Assembly (NCBI RefSeq): GCF_024298905.1
Contig: NZ_CP101154.1
Coordinates: 3,684,932-3,748,931, forward strand
Source: Natronomonas marina
GTDB taxonomy: Archaea; Halobacteriota; Halobacteria; Halobacteriales; Haloarculaceae
Reading direction: 5' to 3'
DNA: 64,000 nt
This document shows, in pieces, positions 12,141 to 57,382 of the stretch (positions are counted from its first letter, which is position 1; each line of letters starts with the position of its first letter). The translations under genes were made by a program, and so were the position numbers. Under the pieces are notes generated by a model. That model saw only the letters and a program-made list of their open reading frames with translations. It was not told the origin of the DNA and made no database searches.

Positions 12141-12290
12141 CGAACTGAGCGGCCGCCGTTCCGGCAAGCATCCGCGAGCGCCCGGAGTCCACGCCCCACT
12201 TGCCGGGCGGCCGACGGCCGCCGCCGAATGGTCACGTCGGGGGAGCCGCCACGCGGTCGCCACCGGCGAGCGGCCGGCAAAAAGTGGGTG
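12141..12290. terminator. Region between convergent gdhA and orc1 with hairpin
   Basis: 150 bp between two convergent stop codons. The part near orc1 is GC-rich with self-complementary segments (cgaccggcgagcgg-type) followed, in plus orientation, by ccggcaaaaagtggg. The same ccggcaaaaa end closes the hairpins at 22812-22845, so this may be a transcription stop or a remnant of the same repeat family. Confidence 0.35.
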
Positions 12291-19025: not shown

Positions 19026-19231
19026 GTTGGCACCTCACATGGACGTACAGACGACATCCGATTTAGCTGAATGCAGGCGCTAAGCCCCCTTCCTCAGCGA
19101 GCGACCAACGGGAGCGAGCAGGGAGGGGATACAGCGCCGTCATCTCCTGTTCGTACACTGTTCTGTTGCGGGCCCACAGGCCCACGTTTACCAAAGCTGT
19201 TATACGTGTAGTGTGCATAACGTGCATTGCG

Positions 19232-19351
19232 GTGAAACGAAAGACAATCACCATTCGAGAGGACCAAGACGAGTGGATTGAGGACCAACACCTCAACCTC
19301 TCGTCGTTCGTCCGAGAGCAATTGGACGAACTTATTGAGGAACGAGAATAG
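19232..19351 (+). CDS. Small ribbon-helix-helix protein of the IS element
   Basis: A 39-residue protein from a GTG start at 19232: (M)KRKTITIREDQDEWIEDQHL then NLSSFVREQLDELIEERE. The beta-strand RKTITI followed by two helices, the second with the SSFVREQLDEL pattern, is a ribbon-helix-helix DNA-binding fold. It ends 4 bp before tnpB and so is likely cotranscribed. Such tiny RHH genes often precede tnpB in haloarchaea and may repress the element. An upstream TTG would add 22 unrelated residues. Confidence 0.75.
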   Translation: MKRKTITIREDQDEWIEDQHLNLSSFVREQLDELIEERE

Positions 19352-19355
19352 CGCA

Positions 19356-20603
19356 ATGTACTACGCCTACAAGTATCGTCTTAAGCCGTCCGACGCCCAC
19401 CGTGAGGAGTTGGATCACCACCGCGATATTTGTCGGCAACTGTATAACCACACGCTCTACCGCCTCAACGAGTACCAAGATAAACACGGCGAACTGCCGT
19501 CCATGACCACGCTTCGGTCGGAACTTCCCGATCTCAAGGAGTGGTGGGACGACCTCTCCGACGTGCACTCGAAGGTGCTCCAAACCGTCGTAGAACGGCT
19601 GTTCGACAACCTCAACGGACTCTCCAAACTCAAGGAGAACGGCTACACCGTCGGCCAACTCAAATGGAAGCCGCCACGGGAGTTCCGCAGTTTCACGTAC
19701 AACCAGTCTGGCTTCAAGCTCGACAAGAAGGGCGGTCAGACTGTCCTGTCACTCTCGAAACTCGGAGATATACCGATTCGGCTCCACCGCGCCATCCCCG
19801 ACGACGCGACGCTCAAACAGGTGACGGTTAAGAAGGAACCGACAGGCGAGTGGTTCGCCACCTTCGGCGTCGAACTGGACCGCGAACCGCCCGAACCACC
19901 TGAGAACCCCGAGCAGTGCGTCGGTATCGACGTAGGGATACTCAAGTACGCCCACGACACCGACGGGACCGCCGTCGAGTCGCTCGACCTCACCGATGAG
20001 CGCGACCGCTTGGAGCGCGAGCAACGGAAACTCTCGCGGAAGCAACACGGGTCGAACAACTACGAGAAGCAACGGCGACGGGTCGCGGAGTATCACGCTG
20101 ACCTCCGACGCAAGCGCCGGGATTTCCTACATAAACTCTCGAACTACTACGCTCGGGAATACGACCTCGTAGCGGTCGAAGACCTGAACGTGAAGAAGAT
20201 GATGGAAAGTCCGTCGAACAGCCGCAACACTGCGTCTGCTGCGTGGCGAACGTTCCTCTCGTTGCTCGAATACAAGTGCGAGCGTGAAGGAACGCACTTC
20301 GTCGCGGTCAACCCGAGAGGGACGACCAAGGAGTGCGCGTCGTGCGGCGTTTCGACCGACAAGCCGTTGTGGGTGCGTGAACACTCCTGCCCCGCCTGCG
20401 GGTTTGAGGCGGACAGGGACGCGAACGCGGCGTGGAACGTTCTTTGTCGCGGTCTAAAAGACGTAGGAGTGGGACACTCCGAATCAACGCCTGTGGAGAC
20501 TGCGCTCCCTGTGGACACTGCGGTTGTGTCTGCAAAGCGTGTCGTGGAAGCAGGAAGCCCCTGCCTCACGGAGCCGCCAACGGCGGCGAGTAGGCGGGGG
20601 TAG
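19356..20603 (+). CDS. tnpB: TnpB RNA-guided endonuclease (IS1341-type)
   Basis: A 415-residue protein starting MYYAYKYRLKPSDAHREELD. It has the N-terminal helical/wedge region, then a split RuvC domain: Asp192 (CVGIDVG), Glu275 (LVAVEDLN) and the DRDANAA motif (Asp353/Asp355). The zinc finger is CxxC...CxxC (Cys327, 330, 345, 348). All catalytic and zinc residues are present and the frame is unbroken, so the nuclease is probably active. TnpB uses an omega RNA from the element's right end to cut matching DNA next to a short motif, which helps keep the element in the genome. The last 40 codons overlap the likely RNA scaffold. Confidence 0.92.
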   Translation: MYYAYKYRLKPSDAHREELDHHRDICRQLYNHTLYRLNEYQDKHGELPSMTTLRSELPDLKEWWDDLSDVHSKVLQTVVERLFDNLNGLSKLKENGYTVGQLKWKPPREFRSFTYNQSGFKLDKKGGQTVLSLSKLGDIPIRLHRAIPDDATLKQVTVKKEPTGEWFATFGVELDREPPEPPENPEQCVGIDVGILKYAHDTDGTAVESLDLTDERDRLEREQRKLSRKQHGSNNYEKQRRRVAEYHADLRRKRRDFLHKLSNYYAREYDLVAVEDLNVKKMMESPSNSRNTASAAWRTFLSLLEYKCEREGTHFVAVNPRGTTKECASCGVSTDKPLWVREHSCPACGFEADRDANAAWNVLCRGLKDVGVGHSESTPVETALPVDTAVVSAKRVVEAGSPCLTEPPTAASRRG

Positions 20604-20766: not shown

Positions 20767-22755
20767 CTATCCGTCCTCGTCGAACTTCTCCAGCAGTTCC
20801 GCGTAGAGGTCGTCCCCCTCGTCGTCGGCCAGTTTCTCGACGATGAGTTCCGGGGTCGACCGTGCCAGGTGGTTCTTCACCGGCGAGCGGTTCACCTGCA
20901 GTTGGCCGTCCTCGAGGCCGGTGGCCTCGATGCCGTCGACGGTCACGTCGGCGTCGGCCGCCTCGCGTATCTCGCCGGCTAGGTGCGAGACGAACACGGC
21001 CGTCGAGTCGCTCTCCTCGAGCGCCTCGAGGATGCCGGCGATGATGACGGCGCTGGCTCCGGGTTCGGTGATGGACTCCAGTTCGTCCACCAGCACGAGT
21101 CGGCGGCGGTCGCCCGCCACGAGCGAGCCGAACTCCCGGAGCGTCGACTCGAAGGCACCGGCGTCGAGCGTCCCCTGGGTCTTCGCCTGGTAGTGTAGCG
21201 CCTCGAAGCGCTCCAGGCGGGCCCGTTCGGCCGGCACCGGCAGCCCCATCTGTCCCAGCACGACCACGAGCGCCACCAGGTCGAGCGTCGACGTCTTGCC
21301 GCCGCTGTTGACGCCGGACAGCAGCGCGGCGCCCTCGACGCCGTAGTCGACCGGTTCGACGTCCTCGAAGCCCACGTCGAGCAGCGGCGACCGGCCGCCA
21401 TCGACGGCGAAGCCGCGCCCCTCGAAGGTCGGGAACGTGCAGTCGAAGTCCTCGGCGAAGCGGGCGACCGCGAGTTCGACGTCGAGTTCGAGGGCGTTCT
21501 CGACGAGGCGTTCGGCGGGTTCGCGCATCTCGCGGAGTTCGTCGGCGAGTTCGCGTTTCAGTCGGGCGGCCCGGCGGTCCCGCGCGGCGGTCAACTCCTC
21601 GCGGAGCCGTTCGACCGCCCGCTCGTCGTGTTCGACGGGGAAGGTCGGCTCCTCGCCGAAGGCCTGCCGCGCCATCGACTCGTAGTCGTCGACTCCCAGG
21701 GCGTCGACGAGGTGCTCGCGGGCGGCCTCGACGGCCGCGGCGTACTCCTCGGACAGTTCGCGCTGGAGCAGCGAGTCGGCGCCGGCGCCCCGCTCGACGA
21801 GCGACAGCAGGTCCGCGCCCTCGATGGTCACGTCCCGCTCCTCGATGGCCGCCCGGAGACGGTCGTTGGCGACGCTCTCGGCCACGGAGACGGCCGCATC
21901 GAGGTCGGCGACTGCCTCTTCGAGGGCGTCGAGGCTCTCGTCGTCGGCGACGGTGCCGTCCTCGTTGAGTCGGCCGAGAGCCGCGTCCATCGCCTCGACG
22001 TCGCCGGGTGCCGGCAGGTCGGCCGCCCGGTGGACCGCCGCCGCCGCGCGAAGCCGGTCGCGGTTCCGGGCGAAAAAGGACAGCGTCCGCTCGGGGACGA
22101 CCGACGCGGGGTCCTCCAGTGCGCCCGGTTCGACCCGGACGTCGCCCTCGACGTCGACGCCGGCGAAGGCCTCGTCGAGGACGACCACCGTCGAGTATCC
22201 TCGCGCGAGGTCGGCGATGCCGCGGGCGTCCTCGACCAGTTCGACGCTCATCTCGGGGACCGCCTCCCTGGCTGCCGAGTAGGTCTCGGCGTCGTTGGTC
22301 GCCAGACAGCGGTCCCGGACCCGGACGTCCCGCGCCGGCTCCAGCGGCTCGACGCCGTCCAGCGCCTCCAGGACCGTCGGCGTCGGCTCCCGCTCGACGG
22401 CCTCGCGGGCGAACGCCCTGACCTCCTCGATGCGGGAGGCGGCCGCGCTGGGATAGAACGTCTCCAGCCGCTTTCGCGCGTAGTCGGTGACGGCCCGCTC
22501 GGTCAGAAGCTCCAGCGCGGCCTCGTAGATCTCGCGGGCCCGCGGCGTCGCGAGGAACTCGCCGTCGTCGTCGTGCTCGTGGCGGATTGCGGCGCGAGCG
22601 ATGCGGGCGGCCCGCCCCTCGCTGACGCCCGGCGCTCGCGCGAGGGTGGCGACGTCGCCCGCCGCCAGCGCCCCCTCGGGGTCGTCGAGTTCGGCCAGCC
22701 GCTCGGCCGTCTTCGCGCCGACGCCGGGGATGCTCTCCAGCTCCTCGAACTCCAT
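20767..22755 (-). CDS. MutS-family ATPase with N-terminal helix-hairpin-helix
   Basis: A 662-residue protein. Residues 1-50 are a helix-hairpin-helix (LESIPGVGAKTAERLAELDD). The middle is helical, like the lever/clamp of MutS. The C-terminal ABC-type ATPase has Walker A GVNSGGKTS (about 482-490) and Walker B RLVLVDELES (about 551-560), followed by the TAVFVSHLAGEI switch. The mismatch-reading N-terminal MutS domain is absent and no Smr nuclease domain is present, so it is neither MutS1 nor typical MutS2; archaeal MutS2-like proteins with HhH are known. It probably acts on branched or recombining DNA. Its start lies 41 bp from the left arm of a long inverted repeat. Confidence 0.87.
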   Translation of the reverse strand: MEFEELESIPGVGAKTAERLAELDDPEGALAAGDVATLARAPGVSEGRAARIARAAIRHEHDDDGEFLATPRAREIYEAALELLTERAVTDYARKRLETFYPSAAASRIEEVRAFAREAVEREPTPTVLEALDGVEPLEPARDVRVRDRCLATNDAETYSAAREAVPEMSVELVEDARGIADLARGYSTVVVLDEAFAGVDVEGDVRVEPGALEDPASVVPERTLSFFARNRDRLRAAAAVHRAADLPAPGDVEAMDAALGRLNEDGTVADDESLDALEEAVADLDAAVSVAESVANDRLRAAIEERDVTIEGADLLSLVERGAGADSLLQRELSEEYAAAVEAAREHLVDALGVDDYESMARQAFGEEPTFPVEHDERAVERLREELTAARDRRAARLKRELADELREMREPAERLVENALELDVELAVARFAEDFDCTFPTFEGRGFAVDGGRSPLLDVGFEDVEPVDYGVEGAALLSGVNSGGKTSTLDLVALVVVLGQMGLPVPAERARLERFEALHYQAKTQGTLDAGAFESTLREFGSLVAGDRRRLVLVDELESITEPGASAVIIAGILEALEESDSTAVFVSHLAGEIREAADADVTVDGIEATGLEDGQLQVNRSPVKNHLARSTPELIVEKLADDEGDDLYAELLEKFDEDG

Positions 22756-22796: not shown

Positions 22797-22973
22797 CGAA
22801 CTTTTTGCACGGTCGCTCGCCGCCGGCGAGCGACCGGCAAAAACTTCGATGAAAAATAGCTCCTCGCTCCAGCCGCCTCGCGCCTGCGGCGCTCGGCGTT
22901 AGTCGCTCGTCGCTACCGAGCGCTCCCTGCGGTCGCGCTCGGGGGAAACGCCTCGCTTCGCTCGGCGTATGCT
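22797..22973 (+). repeat. Left arm of a ~175-bp inverted repeat
   Basis: 177 bp that match the complement of 23747-23917. Apart from one base (cgcttcgctc here, cgctgcgctc in the partner's complement) the arms are identical outside a hairpin. The hairpin between gcacgg and ccggcaaaaa has the stem ggtcgctcgccg/cggcgagcgacc here but a different, shorter stem in the partner. The arm starts 41 bp before the MutS-type gene and ends 38 bp after the stop of the enclosed gene. Confidence 0.95.
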
Positions 22974-23011
22974 CCGCAGCCGCCGACCGTATCTTTTCCC
23001 CTGGATTCTCG

Positions 23012-23704
23012 TCAGTACCGCTCTTCTATCTCCGCTTTCGTCTCCCGGATGACTCGCCGCTCGGCCCGCCGCATCGACCGCAGCGCCTCGTCGGTGTACT
23101 CGACGTCGATTGTCGGGAGCCGGCTGACGAGGAAGCCGCCGCCCAGCACCTCCCCGGGGTCGATCTGGGTCGCCATTCGGAACGCCCCGCGGTGTTCCTG
23201 CATCGGGCCGGTGAATGCGAAGTGGTCGGCGACGAGGCGGGTCATCGCCTCGCGGTCGAAGGCCGTCTCGGCGGCCGCCCAGAAGTCGTCCTCGGGAGCC
23301 TCGACGAGCGGTGCGACGGCCGTCGCCAACCCCCGCTGGCGCTCGAAGAGCCGGTCCCGGAGTTCGGAACGGCGCTCCGGCGAGAGGTCCGACCGCAGGT
23401 TCGCGTCGTAGGCGTCCGCATCCAGGACCGCCGCACGATAGGTCTCGATGTCCTCGCCGCTCTCGATTGCGTCCAGGAGGATGTCGAACTGCGAGACCAC
23501 CTGCTCGCGGTAGGCGGTCAGTTCCGGTTCGACGACCTGCTCGCGGACGGTTTCCGAGTCGCTCAGGAGCCTGTCGACGACCTTTCCGCCGGCGCCGGTC
23601 GCGTCCGACTGCAGCGCCCGCGCGACGCTGAACTCCCGCTCGGTGTAGTCGAGAGCGTCCTCGACGAACCGCACGAATCCCGACCGGGCTGCCTGCCGTG
23701 TCAC
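23012..23704 (-). CDS. Unknown haloarchaeal protein enclosed by inverted repeats
   Basis: A 230-residue soluble, helix-rich protein (MTRQAARSGFVRFVEDALDY). It has no recognised motif; conserved-looking stretches are EREFSVARALQSDATGAGGKVVDRLL, DDFWAAAETAFDREAMTRLV, FAFTGPMQEHRGAFRMATQID and GGGFLVSRLPTIDVEYTDEAL. The latter part has strand character (VLGGGFLVSRLPTIDVEY). A TATA-like agttagata lies about 35 bp before the ATG, inside the segment bounded by the repeats, so promoter and gene form a self-contained 773-bp cassette (22974-23746). All neighbours are on the same strand. Function unknown. Confidence 0.7.
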   Translation of the reverse strand: MTRQAARSGFVRFVEDALDYTEREFSVARALQSDATGAGGKVVDRLLSDSETVREQVVEPELTAYREQVVSQFDILLDAIESGEDIETYRAAVLDADAYDANLRSDLSPERRSELRDRLFERQRGLATAVAPLVEAPEDDFWAAAETAFDREAMTRLVADHFAFTGPMQEHRGAFRMATQIDPGEVLGGGFLVSRLPTIDVEYTDEALRSMRRAERRVIRETKAEIEERY

Positions 23705-23746
23705 GGCCGACGATTGGTCGCCGAGGCGTATCTAACTGACGGCGGT

Positions 23747-23917
23747 AGCATACGCCGAGCGCAGCGAGGCGTTTCCCCCGAGCGCGACCGCAGGGAGCGC
23801 TCGGTAGCGACGAGCGACTAACGCCGAGCGCCGCAGGCGCGAGGCGGCTGGAGCGAGGAGCTATTTTTCATCGAAGTTTTTGCCGGCGCGGCGAAGCCGC
23901 GCCGTGCAAAAAGTTCG
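23747..23917 (-). repeat. Right arm of the ~175-bp inverted repeat
   Basis: 171 bp complementary to 22797-22973. It begins 42 bp before the start codon of the enclosed gene and ends 2 bp from the stop codon of the PolD large-subunit gene. Its outer hairpin has the stem gcgcggc/gccgcgc with loop gaa, in place of the 21-bp variant of the left arm, while the sequences on both sides of the hairpin are the same. Confidence 0.95.
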
Positions 23918-23919
23918 GG

Positions 23920-26900
23920 TTACATGAAGTCCGCGATGCCGCTCTGCTTGTTGGTGTCGTCCTCGAAGATGGACTCGACCGACCGGTCGAGAATCTCCAG
24001 TCGCTGGACGGTGTACTCCCGGCAGTCGTACTCCTCGGCGACCCGGAGGGCGGTGTCGATGTACTTGTTCACCGACCCCTCGTAGACGGTGAGGTTCACG
24101 TCGCCGCCGCACTCCCGGCAGTCGCCGGTCAGGGGCATCCGGCGGAACTTCTCGCCGCAGTCCTTGCAGCGGGTCTCCTGCCGAGAGAACGCCCGCAGGT
24201 TGCCGATGATGTCCGGCAGGAAGTGGTACTCGATGACGCGCTCTGCGACGTCCGTCTCGTCGACCGACCGCAGCTTCCGGGACAGCTCGAGCTGGGCGTC
24301 CATCTTCTCCATCATGTCGCCCAGCGTCTTGTACGCCGACAGGTCCGGTCCCAGCGCGACGTCGGCGGTGTCGTGGGTGTGCTCGAACCCCCGGTACTGG
24401 TCGTCGGTGCCGAGCGTGTCCTCGCCCAGTTGGATGCGTTCTTCGACGGCGCCGGGGTCGGCCATCTCGCGGGTCGCCTCGTAGAACTCCCGGGGGTACG
24501 ACGAGACGATGTCCATGTTGTGCGCCTCGTCGTCGATTTCGGCCGGGTCGATGCGCGAGGACATGACCAGGGGTGCGTCCATCCTCCCACCTCGCTGATC
24601 TGGCAGGAACGTTTTAGAGAAGTTGATAAGACCGTCCATGAGGAGCATCACGCAGTCCTCGTCGCCGTCACACTGGCGAGCGGACAGGTCTTCCGCGATG
24701 AGCGAGTTCGTCTCTTCGACCGTGAGGCAGTACACGTGGTCGGTCTCCGATTCGACGTATTCGACCTCCGAGACGGGGTCAAGGAGGTAGTCGTTGGTCC
24801 CTCCATCGTAGCAATACGCCGTTCGATCGGCGGGACGAATTTCGCCGACCTGTTCGTTCAGCGTTCGGTCCTTTCGCGAGAGGTGGAACCCGGCTACTTC
24901 CGCGAAGCGGACGGCACCATCGCGCGAGACGGTTATCTCGTATCCCCGCCGCGACAGGGAGTCGTCGTCCTCGTCGTAGAACTCCGGGAACTGCTCGCGG
25001 AGTGGAACCCGCGGACGATGGTTCACCTGGGCACTGATACCGAGTCGGGTAAGGAGTCCGAGCAGGTCGGACTTGAGTTCGCGGCTTACCGTACTGGCAG
25101 TGACACGAGGTGCGCTGTCGTCGGCCGAGCCGTCGCCGCTGAAGTACCCGCCGAGGTACGCACCGACGATGCGGTCCGGCGCGTCGAAGATCGGCTGTGG
25201 AACTCGCTTCGTGTGCGCGCGGGTTCCGGCATCGAGAATCGAGTCGACGAAGGTCCGGAGGAGTCGGCCCGACACCGTCACCTTTGCGTCGTTCTCCTCG
25301 TACGGTTCGACCCCGAACTCGCTGCGGAACACTTCCAGAGCGAACTCGCGTGCTTCGGCCTCGGTCCCGCAAATAGTCGTCTGGTGAATCGTCCCCTTCG
25401 GGGTCTCCTGTGCTCGGGTGAACCCTTCGGCCGCGTAGTAGCCCAGAAGCGTCGCGACCCGCTCGTCGAGTTCGATCGTTCGACTGATTTCGGTCCGGTC
25501 GCGCTTCATCCCCAACCGGACGTCGTCGGGAACGAACTCGAGGAGTCCCGTCGGCGTGTCGAAGAACTCCGACAGGAGCGTGACCGGGATACTCTCGCGA
25601 TAGAGATAGTTGCTCAGTTGTTTCTTCGTGAGACCGAGGTGCTCGGCGGTGCTCTGGAGTGGATAGAACTGGCCGCCCCAATCGTCCTCGAGACGGTCGA
25701 CGAACAGATCGTAGAGTCCGTCCTTGTCGAGTCCCTTCACCATCAGGCGTTCATTATCGATACTCGGTTCCTCAAGGAACGCTGCGAGGAGGTCGAACCG
25801 CCGTTCGGATTCCGAGGGAGATACGCTCTCGATGCCCCGCGGAGTGATGAGTCGATCAGTTTCGTCCAGTTCTCGAGCCTCGGCCGAGACGATTCGACCG
25901 AGTTCCGAGTCGTAGACGTGGACCCGATGGTCGGGCGTGACGGTGAGTTCCCGGCCCGATTCGGTCGCCACTCGGACCATGTGGTCCGGTGCGGGGTGTT
26001 TGCTCACCGCCTCGACTGGCTGGAGTGACTGGGAGCCGTCGTCACGCACCGACGGGACGTGAGGCACGGAATCGGATTCACCGAGGTGTGCGACGAGGGT
26101 TCCGAAGTCGTCTCGTTCTACCGTCCCGTCGTCGAGTCGTTCCTCGACGAGCGACTCAATCTCTTTGTGACGGGTGGCTCCGCCCTCGTCCTCGTACCAC
26201 ACCTTCGTCTCCGGGTGGAAGCAGTTCCGACGTTTCGCGGCGTGAAAGTACGGATGCGCGTACCCGACCGCGGCCGACGTGAAACCTATAACTCTCCCGA
26301 CAACAGCGGCGGAGGTGTGCGGTGCCATCCCGAAGACCAACTCGCCGACGAGGTCGTCACGGTCGTCGACCTCGTAGAACGGCTCGACGCCGTAGTACTG
26401 TTCGAGGAGGTCGTCGACGAAGTCGGCGGTCCGCAGCATGTGTTCGGCGGCGCCGTTCGAGAGCACGACGTCCTGGACGCGCAACTCGACGAGCTGGTCC
26501 TCGTGGGTCAGGGGGTCGCCGTGGATGTCGGTCTCGTAGCCGAGCGAGCGGAGCCGGTCGGCGTCGACGTCCAACTCGCGCGGCCGCACCGCGGTCACGG
26601 GCAGGTCCGTCATGTCGTAGCGGACGGTGCCGTCCTTGAACGAGGAGACGCCGTGCTTGGCCCGAAGCACCCCCTTCTCGATGGGTTCGGGGACCTTCTC
26701 GGCCGAGGACAGCCCCTTGACGCCCTTCAGGACGTCGAAGGCGTTCTCCCGCTCGCCGACGTTCTCCAGCGCCGAGCGGTACTCGTCGTTGACGTCGAGG
26801 GTCTTCGTCCGGACGGCGTCGGCCTCCCGTTCGCAGCGGGGACAAACCGCCCGGCCCGACTCGTCGGGTTCGACGTCGACGTCGCAGTCCCGGCAGACGT

Positions 26901-29067
26901 AGTGGGGGTCGGTGACGCCGTTGCACTCCGGGCAGCGCGCGCGGTGGGTCTCGGTCCCGCACTCGCCACAGCGGCGGCGGCCGACCTGCACGTCGACCAG
27001 TCCGGGGGTGTCCTGCATGGTCTCAGCGTGTTTGCCGGCGGCGGCGATGTCCCGCTGGGAACCGCCGGCCTCGCCGATGGGAAACAGCGTGTGGACGGCC
27101 GGCGAGAGGTCCCGTTTCTCCGACTTCTCGGGGCGACCCATCCGGCAACCGACGCGTGTCGGGGCGCGCTCGCGGACCTCGAAGGGGGCCACCTCCTCGA
27201 CGACCCGGATCGAGTTCTCGCCGTCGTCCCAGGTCCGGGCCGACTCCGGGAGGTCCGCGAGGGTCCAGGTGCGTTCGAGGTCCGCGGTGAGGCCGATCGA
27301 CCGCACCAGCGGGAGGGCGTCGGGCACGGTGAGCGTCTCCTCGCCCTGGGTGTGCTCGACGAGCAGGACCTCCAGGGCCTCCCGGACGGGTTCGCTTCTG
27401 GGCACGACGAGCGTCCTGTCGGCGCTCGGGGCGGCGGCGTCTCGTTCGACGGCGGCACCGTCCGCTTCCGCCCAGTGGCCCTCGCTGGCGGCCGTCGCCA
27501 GCGCGTCGAACCGCTCGACGTCGAGGTCGTGCCAGAGGTAGGTGTACTCGGGGTGCAACGGGACGTCGTACTCTTGGGCCCACTCGATGGCTTGCTCGGC
27601 GCTCGGGTGTTCGAGGTCGACCTGCGGGGAGTCGACCAGCGCCTGGACGTCGGCGCCGGCGGCCGCGAGGTCCTGTTTCCACCACTCCGGGGCGTAGGCG
27701 GCGGGCGAGAGCGGGTGGTTGTTCTCGACGAACTCGCCGTAGTTGACGAGGTACTCGCCCAGATCGAGGATGGCCTCGACGCCGTTGCGTATCTCGAGGG
27801 CCTCCGCGGGGTCGTCGACGCGCCGGACGTCGCCGTTGGCGAGTCTGACGGTCGGTCCCTCGATGGAGTCGACGGGGACGACGCCGGCGGCCTTCCCCGG
27901 GCGCTCGGTCTTGATCTGCGTGCCGGTCGCCAGGAAGTCGTCGACGAGGTGCATCGTCGCGGGGTGGACGCCAGCAGTGGCGAAGCCGTGGTTGCGGGCG
28001 CGGCCGTACCGGAGGCGGAAGCCCCCGGTCTCGGAGGGGTGGCCGAACACCGGCCGGCCGGCGATGAGGTCCCGGAGGAACTTCTTGGAGGGGTCGGGAC
28101 GCGGCGGGCCTCCGCGTTCTGGACCGTCGTCGGATCCGGGGTCGGTGTCGTCGTCGGCGTCGTCCGCCTCGCTGCCGTCGTCGCCGCCCGCCGCGTCGTC
28201 CTCGCCGCTCGTCTCGCTCTTCCCGTAGTTGCCGTCGATGAGGTCCTGGAGCCAGGGCCAGTCGACCTCCTCGAGTTGCGAGGTGTAGCGCTGAATCTTC
28301 GGCGCCTTCTGTGCGATGCCCTCGCCGAGAACGAGACACATCCCGCCGCGGGCGTTGTTGGTGTCGACTCGTTCGAGGTCCCGGAAGCCGGACACCTCCT
28401 CGTCGCCGGTGGCCTCCCCGTCCAGCATGATGGGGGTGTTCCGGGCGATGAACTTCGCCTCGGCGTCCTTGGGGGCGTACTGGAGGCCGGTCTCGTCGTC
28501 GTACAACGACAGCTCCTCAGCGTAGCGTTCGACCTCCGAATCCCGGGGCCGGTACTCCTCGATGCCGACGAGCGTCCGGGTGTAGTCGGCGACCAGCACC
28601 GACAGCGCCTGCGCGGTCCCGCCCGCCGAGCGGATGGGTCCGGCGTAGTAGATGTTGACGAACTCGGTGCCGTCGTCGTTCTCCAGCAGTTCGACCCGGT
28701 CGATGCCCTCAATGGGGGCGGCGACGACGCCCTCCGTCAGCAGGGCGACGGCGGTCCGGACCGCGCCCTCGACCTTGCCGGCGCGGGTGTCGTAGTCGCC
28801 GACCGACCCCTCCGCGAAGTCGGCCGCCAACTCGAGGGCCGCCTCCTCGCGGGAGAGGTCGGGGTCGTCCTCCATCTCGCGGACCCGCTCTGCGACCCCG
28901 TCGATGCCGAGGATGTTCTCGACGCGGTCGGCCATGTCCTTGGCGATGGGGATTTCGACGTCGTCGGTGGGGTCGCCGCCGCGCTCGCGGGCGTCCCGCG
29001 CCACCGACAGCGCCTCGTCGAGGCCGGATTCGAGTCGCTCGAAGTACCGTTCGTCGTCCGGGCGCAT
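23920..29067 (-). CDS. polD2: DNA polymerase D large subunit DP2, with intein
   Basis: A 1715-residue precursor; removing the 517-residue intein leaves 1198, the normal DP2 length. DP2 is the catalytic subunit of the replicative polymerase PolD. The intein splits RRN from CDGDEDC, the conserved acidic catalytic motif (Asp1467 and Asp1469 in the precursor), so the polymerase is inactive until splicing. Zinc clusters lie near residues 697-745 (CGECG...CPEC...CRDC...CPRC) and 1630-1655 (CKDCG...CRECG). The C-terminus QSGIADFM resembles a PCNA-binding PIP box. An acidic insertion at about 285-330 (DDADDDTDPGSDDGPE) is haloarchaeal. The start directly abuts the stop of the upstream PPC-domain gene, so both are one transcription unit. 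Confidence 0.96.
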   Translation of the reverse strand: MRPDDERYFERLESGLDEALSVARDARERGGDPTDDVEIPIAKDMADRVENILGIDGVAERVREMEDDPDLSREEAALELAADFAEGSVGDYDTRAGKVEGAVRTAVALLTEGVVAAPIEGIDRVELLENDDGTEFVNIYYAGPIRSAGGTAQALSVLVADYTRTLVGIEEYRPRDSEVERYAEELSLYDDETGLQYAPKDAEAKFIARNTPIMLDGEATGDEEVSGFRDLERVDTNNARGGMCLVLGEGIAQKAPKIQRYTSQLEEVDWPWLQDLIDGNYGKSETSGEDDAAGGDDGSEADDADDDTDPGSDDGPERGGPPRPDPSKKFLRDLIAGRPVFGHPSETGGFRLRYGRARNHGFATAGVHPATMHLVDDFLATGTQIKTERPGKAAGVVPVDSIEGPTVRLANGDVRRVDDPAEALEIRNGVEAILDLGEYLVNYGEFVENNHPLSPAAYAPEWWKQDLAAAGADVQALVDSPQVDLEHPSAEQAIEWAQEYDVPLHPEYTYLWHDLDVERFDALATAASEGHWAEADGAAVERDAAAPSADRTLVVPRSEPVREALEVLLVEHTQGEETLTVPDALPLVRSIGLTADLERTWTLADLPESARTWDDGENSIRVVEEVAPFEVRERAPTRVGCRMGRPEKSEKRDLSPAVHTLFPIGEAGGSQRDIAAAGKHAETMQDTPGLVDVQVGRRRCGECGTETHRARCPECNGVTDPHYVCRDCDVDVEPDESGRAVCPRCEREADAVRTKTLDVNDEYRSALENVGERENAFDVLKGVKGLSSAEKVPEPIEKGVLRAKHGVSSFKDGTVRYDMTDLPVTAVRPRELDVDADRLRSLGYETDIHGDPLTHEDQLVELRVQDVVLSNGAAEHMLRTADFVDDLLEQYYGVEPFYEVDDRDDLVGELVFGMAPHTSAAVVGRVIGFTSAAVGYAHPYFHAAKRRNCFHPETKVWYEDEGGATRHKEIESLVEERLDDGTVERDDFGTLVAHLGESDSVPHVPSVRDDGSQSLQPVEAVSKHPAPDHMVRVATESGRELTVTPDHRVHVYDSELGRIVSAEARELDETDRLITPRGIESVSPSESERRFDLLAAFLEEPSIDNERLMVKGLDKDGLYDLFVDRLEDDWGGQFYPLQSTAEHLGLTKKQLSNYLYRESIPVTLLSEFFDTPTGLLEFVPDDVRLGMKRDRTEISRTIELDERVATLLGYYAAEGFTRAQETPKGTIHQTTICGTEAEAREFALEVFRSEFGVEPYEENDAKVTVSGRLLRTFVDSILDAGTRAHTKRVPQPIFDAPDRIVGAYLGGYFSGDGSADDSAPRVTASTVSRELKSDLLGLLTRLGISAQVNHRPRVPLREQFPEFYDEDDDSLSRRGYEITVSRDGAVRFAEVAGFHLSRKDRTLNEQVGEIRPADRTAYCYDGGTNDYLLDPVSEVEYVESETDHVYCLTVEETNSLIAEDLSARQCDGDEDCVMLLMDGLINFSKTFLPDQRGGRMDAPLVMSSRIDPAEIDDEAHNMDIVSSYPREFYEATREMADPGAVEERIQLGEDTLGTDDQYRGFEHTHDTADVALGPDLSAYKTLGDMMEKMDAQLELSRKLRSVDETDVAERVIEYHFLPDIIGNLRAFSRQETRCKDCGEKFRRMPLTGDCRECGGDVNLTVYEGSVNKYIDTALRVAEEYDCREYTVQRLEILDRSVESIFEDDTNKQSGIADFM
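24673..26223 (-). other. Intein in PolD large subunit with LAGLIDADG endonuclease
   Basis: Residues 949-1465 of the precursor (517 aa). It starts with Cys (CFHPETKVWYED), has the block B pattern TVTPDHRVHVYD, and ends SLIAEDLSARQ before the +1 Cys of the extein. The last residue is Gln instead of the usual Asn, as in other haloarchaeal PolD inteins, so it uses the variant C-terminal cleavage. Two dodecapeptide motifs, LLGYYAAEGF and YLGGYFSGDGS, mark a LAGLIDADG homing endonuclease with both acidic residues present (Glu, Asp), so it may still be active. Confidence 0.93.
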
Positions 29068-56843: not shown

Positions 56844-57382
56844 CGACCCCGCCGTCCCGCGACGTCGTTCGGCCCTCCACGCTGTCCCGTCCCGTCTTCA
56901 CCGGTATTCCCGTCTCGTTTTTCGAGCGCGTGCGTTCCCGAAGAACGATTCACTCCTTGAAACTGAAACGAGCCCGCCACGTACACGGAGCCCAGCATCC
57001 GCCGAGCAGGGCCTTCGGAGACGGCCCCCGAGGCGGTTCGCAGCGGCGCTTTGCGCCGCCGTAGCGCGCACGGACTGACGCGACGCCGACGGCGTCGCGG
57101 AAGGAGTACGCGCGCATATTTTCCCCACGTTTTTGCCGCGGATTGCGGGCGAAGCCCGCAACCGGAAGGCGCGGCGGTAACGCCGCCGCGCGGCCGGCGG
57201 CTCCGCCGCCGGGTCGTGTAAAAAGTGGGCTCTATGGAGTGGGGATTCGATTCATCCCTCCCTGAAAACAGTTCCCGGGAGGAGTTCTACGGCACCCTCT
57301 CGATCGGCTGCGGCTGGATACCTGGTCGGGCTCCGACGAGCGGGGGGACCTGGTCCAGTGGCGCCGGCGTCACGCTGTCGGT
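56844..57382. repeat. Gene-free stretch with a cluster of GC-rich hairpins
   Basis: 539 bp with no credible gene. At least four strong hairpins lie in 57043-57215: gcggcgc-ttt-gcgccgc (57043-57059), gcgacgccg-a-cggcgtcgc (57080-57098), ttgcgggc-gaa-gcccgcaa (57143-57161) and gcggcg-gtaa-cgccgc (57171-57186), then a further GGCGG/CCGCC fold. The last group is bordered by cacgtttttgccgcgg and gtgtaaaaagtggg, like the borders of the hairpins at 22801-22845 and 23872-23913. Probably a decayed mobile repeat. Confidence 0.6.

Follow-up and report, generated by a model that had tools for sequence, protein, structure and literature searches.

Two sister species of Natronomonas, QS_4_69_225 (G011) and QS_8_69_73 (G014; support 100/99), differ, to judge from their aligned sequences, by the inversion of a single-gene cassette that lies between polD2 and a mutS-like gene, with both neighbours intact. 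In Natronomonas marina, the same cassette is enclosed by two inverted copies of a dispersed hairpin repeat that usually lies at gene 3′ ends. In our assessment, the best explanation of the locus, and probably the correct one, is inversion and gene conversion between such inverted 3′-end units, neutral with respect to the direction in which the enclosed gene lies.

Within the window (the whole stretch of 64,000 nt of contig NZ_CP101154.1 that was analysed), a repeat search recovered the near-perfect inverted repeat that the first-pass annotation had described, as 140 nt at 99% complementarity around a spacer of 773 nt, with an extra 16-nt perfect match at the outer ends of both arms (Table 1). 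The arms are 171–177 bp long, and their end-to-end global alignment leaves a single substitution and one replaced hairpin stem; chance is excluded as the origin of a 140-nt inverted repeat at this identity. The annotation was also right that the arms end at gene borders, with 2 bp left to the polD2 stop on one side and 41 bp to the ATG of the mutS-like gene on the other, and that the 773-bp cassette holds one gene, ORF230, with a promoter-like element of its own. The intein of polD2 bears a LAGLIDADG domain, and the homologous genes of relatives appear to vary in intein content. Beyond the mutS-like gene lies a gene for a TnpB-type RNA-guided nuclease (19278–20603), with a 61-aa ORF just upstream (19166–19351) that by eye has a ribbon–helix–helix look and had no match in Pfam. 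A link between TnpB and the arms was considered and rejected: its flanks carry no arm-like sequence, and the only matching piece, of 21 nt, lies inside the gene.

Table 1. Features of the polD2–mutS-like interval of Natronomonas marina (window coordinates)
Feature	Position	Strand	Description
Left arm	22797..22973	+	A full repeat unit, with hairpin 1 at its outer end, on the mutS-like side; inner end GGCGTATGCT
Right arm	23747..23917	-	Second unit, inverted; hairpin 1 begins 2 bp past the polD2 stop; fits the stop-codon rule of the family
Left-arm hairpin 1	22803..22843	+	Stem CGGTCGCTCGCCG/CGGCGAGCGACCG; stem covaries over copies
Right-arm hairpin 1	23877..23911	-	Stem CGGCGCGGC/GCCGCGCCG; different stem, same fold as in the left arm
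Left-arm conserved core	22838..22858	+	CAAAAACTTCGATGAAAAATA; minus strand, read as ORF230 is transcribed, gives TTTTTC (T5C)
Right-arm core	23862..23882	-	Same core; homologous core is the probable crossover site in the sister species
ORF230	23012..23704	-	230-aa protein, predicted helical, of a haloarchaeal family
ORF230 TATA-like promoter element	23727..23740	-	TTAGATAC at 23728–23735; inside the cassette
polD2 (DP2) with intein	23920..29067	-	Upstream neighbour
MutS-like ATPase with HhH domain	20767..22755	-	Downstream neighbour

Sequences of the arm type also occur away from the cassette, each arm being a single complete unit, about 177 bp long, of a dispersed repeat in which hairpin 1 (CTTTTTGCAC, stem, GGCAAAAAC) is followed by the core and then by additional stems. 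The search for further arms that had been proposed returned 28 dispersed matches to the core pattern in the Natronomonas marina genome and 59 in the congener G002, and the reversed pattern, used as a specificity control, gave zero in both; the arms are thus ordinary intergenic repeats rather than unique ends. Among the genomes searched, 40 of 97 contain the core pattern. Elsewhere in the window, the family is represented by a core at about 57117–57135 (minus strand) and a partial hairpin at 12254–12290. The units had no Rfam match above the gathering score, the exact core was absent from viral contigs and plasmid records yielded one 32-nt match. We found no description of the family in the literature searched, in which subscription papers were mostly outside coverage.

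The hairpin stems covary across unit copies, the structure of which is conserved. Among 58 copies from three genomes, the 45 that were readable begin the stem of hairpin 1 in 26 different ways; pairing is 0.92 within a copy versus 0.64 across copies (0 of 2,000 permutations as good), and the corresponding values for the inner stem are 0.91 and 0.63. Because stems vary by compensation from copy to copy, the replaced stem that the annotation had noted between the arms is real but typical of the family, and not peculiar to this pair. Of the two strands of the units, the minus strand folds better (z-scores of −5.9 versus −3.6). On that strand, for example at 22860–22920, two covarying stems flank a conserved internal loop, GACTAACG/CGGCTGGA, which would possibly form tandem G–A pairs if the minus strand is an RNA. 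An IS630-like insertion sequence (DDE_3) is present in seven copies in the Natronomonas marina genome (L229–L236); all seven lie inside a hairpin loop, and three or more are within or next to repeat units.

Units are placed mainly at gene ends. A stop codon in sense lies just upstream of 35 of the 45 copies that have a gene ending no more than 150 nt upstream, an approximate count since it relied on a simple gene caller, and the distance from stop to hairpin is mostly a few bases. The left arm is an exception, with no stop codon preceding it in sense; a counterpart of its unit occupies the same site in G007 and G011, and its outer part alone is present in G014. Units that lie close together (<2.5 kb) are hairpin-outward in 13 of 13 pairs from three genomes, for which chance would predict a quarter. 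Several such pairs carry no cargo, with a spacer of only about 50–100 bp and no gene, and they also occur between co-directional genes. Other gene-enclosing hairpin-outward pairs were seen at G016:C2:1426061-1427739 (L150) and G002:C1:2381364-2383250 (L186).

ORF230 is present once in the Natronomonas marina genome and patchily among haloarchaea (17 of 60 genomes). It falls into no family in Pfam, NCBIfam, PHROG or PADLOC, and searches of PDB sequences, of the PDB with Foldseek and of viral libraries gave no usable match and no significant structural or sequence relative. The predicted fold is helical (pLDDT 88.7), and a dN/dS of about 0.2–0.45 points to moderate purifying selection, apart from the copy in G014, which a frameshifting 50-nt deletion has made a pseudogene. 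The promoter-like element lies 24–31 bp before the ORF230 start, and a similar element, GTCA..TA.AT, was recognized by eye at the equivalent position in five congeners (G007, G011, G014, G013 and G015). It lies within the cassette in all six species, and so moves along with ORF230.

Among the genomes examined, polD2 adjoins the mutS-like gene only in Natronomonas, and the interval between them varies widely. It is a bare junction of 57 bp in G010, G016 and G001, holds unrelated genes in G009 and G018 and a cargo-less unit pair in G002, and contains ORF230 in six species. Descent of the G002 spacer from the promoter of ORF230 was considered, and dropped as other cargo-less pairs have comparable AT-rich spacers. 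The arms around ORF230 vary as well, with only one in G007 and none in G013 and G015. ORF230 runs along with polD2 and mutS in Natronomonas marina (G000), G007 and G011, and in the opposite direction in G014, G013 and G015. The comparison of relatives that had been suggested thus found presence, absence and orientation all to vary, and the uniform orientation that would have spoken against inversion was not seen. Since one assembly represents each species, these are differences between species.

The best-resolved change of orientation is that between G011 and G014. Both sisters share a collinear arrangement of polD2 and mutS, so the cassette alone has turned. The outer flanks and hairpins have stayed put (94% identity over 52 nt on the polD2 side and 87% over 119 nt on the mutS side) and the inner halves have changed places: the MutS-side inner half of G011 is that of the polD2 side in G014, identical for more than 100 nt past the hairpin, and the polD2-side inner half of G011 matches the MutS-side inner half of G014. 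The inner half next to the ORF230 start is accordingly the polD2-side one in G011 and the MutS-side one in G014. This pattern places the crossover, in all likelihood, within the shared core, and it bears out the earlier suggestion that a flip would harm neither neighbour, since the two species differ exactly by inversion of the cassette. The longest perfect identity noticed between the two G011 arms is 28 nt. A perfect core of 28 bp is short for homologous recombination and also of a length that ordinary assembly can resolve. The reversed genomes, however, are split into 40–140 contigs, and at least that of G014 is metagenome-derived, as is that of its sister G011. The tree requires at least two orientation changes, because G013 and G015 are reversed yet armless, and the arm junctions explain only one of them; the reversal in G013 and G015 possibly came about by a different mechanism.

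Gene conversion is suggested by a comparison of the arms themselves. The two arms of a pair are strongly divergent in G011 and in G014; in Natronomonas marina, their inner parts are near-identical and their outer hairpins different. Over its full length, the left unit of Natronomonas marina aligns with the unit on the MutS side in G007 and G011. From these alignments we infer that the right inner half was recently converted by the left. Of the two origins offered by the annotation for the near-identity of the arms, recent duplication or continuing gene conversion, it is a recent conversion that they appear to fit.

A second operon flanked by units gives a measure of how often such flips occur. 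In G002 and G015, inverted units enclose cupin and DUF393 genes that lie between the thermosome gene and a CBS-domain gene (L185, L192–L205), and at the corresponding locus of Natronomonas marina the hairpin of one unit is split by an IS630-like element. Strong cupin matches came from 14 species, a few of them without an informative neighbour gene; the operon has the same orientation in all 10 species in which orientation was readable, which indicates that flips are rare.

These observations also make it improbable that the locus is the invertible switch that had been proposed, in which a recombinase would flip the cassette to alter expression of ORF230 or its neighbours. Such a switch would account for both orientations among close relatives and would maintain near-identical arms such as those of Natronomonas marina, and the cassette resembles the Hin, fim and shufflon systems in having inverted repeats around a segment known in both orientations. 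Unlike in those systems, however, the promoter-like element is internal, so that inversion neither connects nor disconnects a promoter or reading frame; the arms are general repeats; and flips are seen between species only. A search for tyrosine recombinases found none in the window and the nearest about 140 kb away. Moreover, the flipped copy of G014 is a pseudogene, three of the relatives carrying ORF230 lack one or both arms and the cupin–DUF393 operon is unflipped.

We give equally little credence to the idea that the units are palindromes of the REP/BIME/REPIN type that a Y1 (RAYT) transposase mobilizes, and that ORF230 became caught between a pair of them. The units resemble these bacterial elements in being extragenic, palindromic, multi-copy, dispersed, biased to 3′ ends and arranged in inverted pairs. 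Y1 genes, however, do not follow the cores in number (one short Y1 for 59 cores in G002, none for 22 in G011 and four for one in G003), and the Y1 proteins present are short, of IS200 size only. At about 177 bp, with several stems whose fast-changing sequence varies freely by compensation, and in an archaeal host, the units also differ from the 20–40-bp REPs described in PMC3733652. Given the likeness in location, palindromy and pairing, the units are best called REP/BIME-like. Roles in termination and mRNA stabilization have been proposed for the bacterial elements (PMC3733652, PMC2817692), and the main text of a 2025 survey of REPs that covers archaea mentions neither Natronomonas nor ‘Halo-’ organisms (PMC12306157).

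Least likely of all, and mostly refuted, is the other earlier proposal, a cargo-carrying miniature element whose terminal repeats brought in ORF230 as a unit: although the extra DNA of Natronomonas marina relative to the bare 57-bp junction coincides almost exactly with the span of the arms, the arms share their 16-nt outer repeat and they enclose a gene as in MITEs with passenger genes, there is no target duplication (the flanks CTCCGCA and GGTTACA show none, and none was evident by eye in relatives), ORF230 homologues away from the locus are all armless, arms plus cargo were not found at several sites, relatives carry ORF230 here with one arm or none, units occur singly across the chromosome and often in cargo-less pairs, and phage and plasmid records gave no match.

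Under the favoured explanation, inversion and conversion between 3′-end units, hairpin-outward units would recombine, most likely by ordinary homologous recombination, and their arrangement permits two outcomes, inversion of the enclosed gene or conversion of one arm to the other. After a flip, each neighbour would retain its own outer hairpin, and the enclosed gene would retain its promoter and again run into the T5C tract of a unit. Its orientation would then be free to drift, making the locus a flip-neutral slot rather than a regulatory switch. The recombination pathway, the neutrality of the flip and the left-to-right direction of conversion are all proposals at this stage, as is a function of the units in termination. 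In the outward direction from the cassette, TTTTTC followed by TTTTTG occurs in each unit, and transcription leaving polD2 would meet TTTTTG in the right unit no more than about ten bases after the stop. In Haloferax volcanii, T5C gives 95% termination (PMC7237163), and the core resembles the T-stretch terminators of that species in its T5C/T4C, present in one direction, and its T5G, present in both; it differs from them in that a large, conserved unit with several hairpins surrounds the tracts. The units are hence putative two-way terminators; if they do terminate both ways, the cassette would be insulated in either orientation and a flip would cost nothing.

The locus shows the inversion of a single archaeal gene with the junctions preserved in both arms, and links it to a dispersed, strongly covarying repeat family. 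A broader reading, which we put forward only tentatively, is that this undescribed archaeal 3′-end repeat family forms hairpin-outward pairs that serve as two-way insulators and as crossover homology, making slots in which self-contained genes repeatedly invert, swap or are lost, perhaps still inverting within populations. Two-way terminators, if that is what the units are, would explain how a gene beside that of a replicative DNA polymerase can flip without cost, and would provide a simple route by which gene orientation changes in compact genomes.
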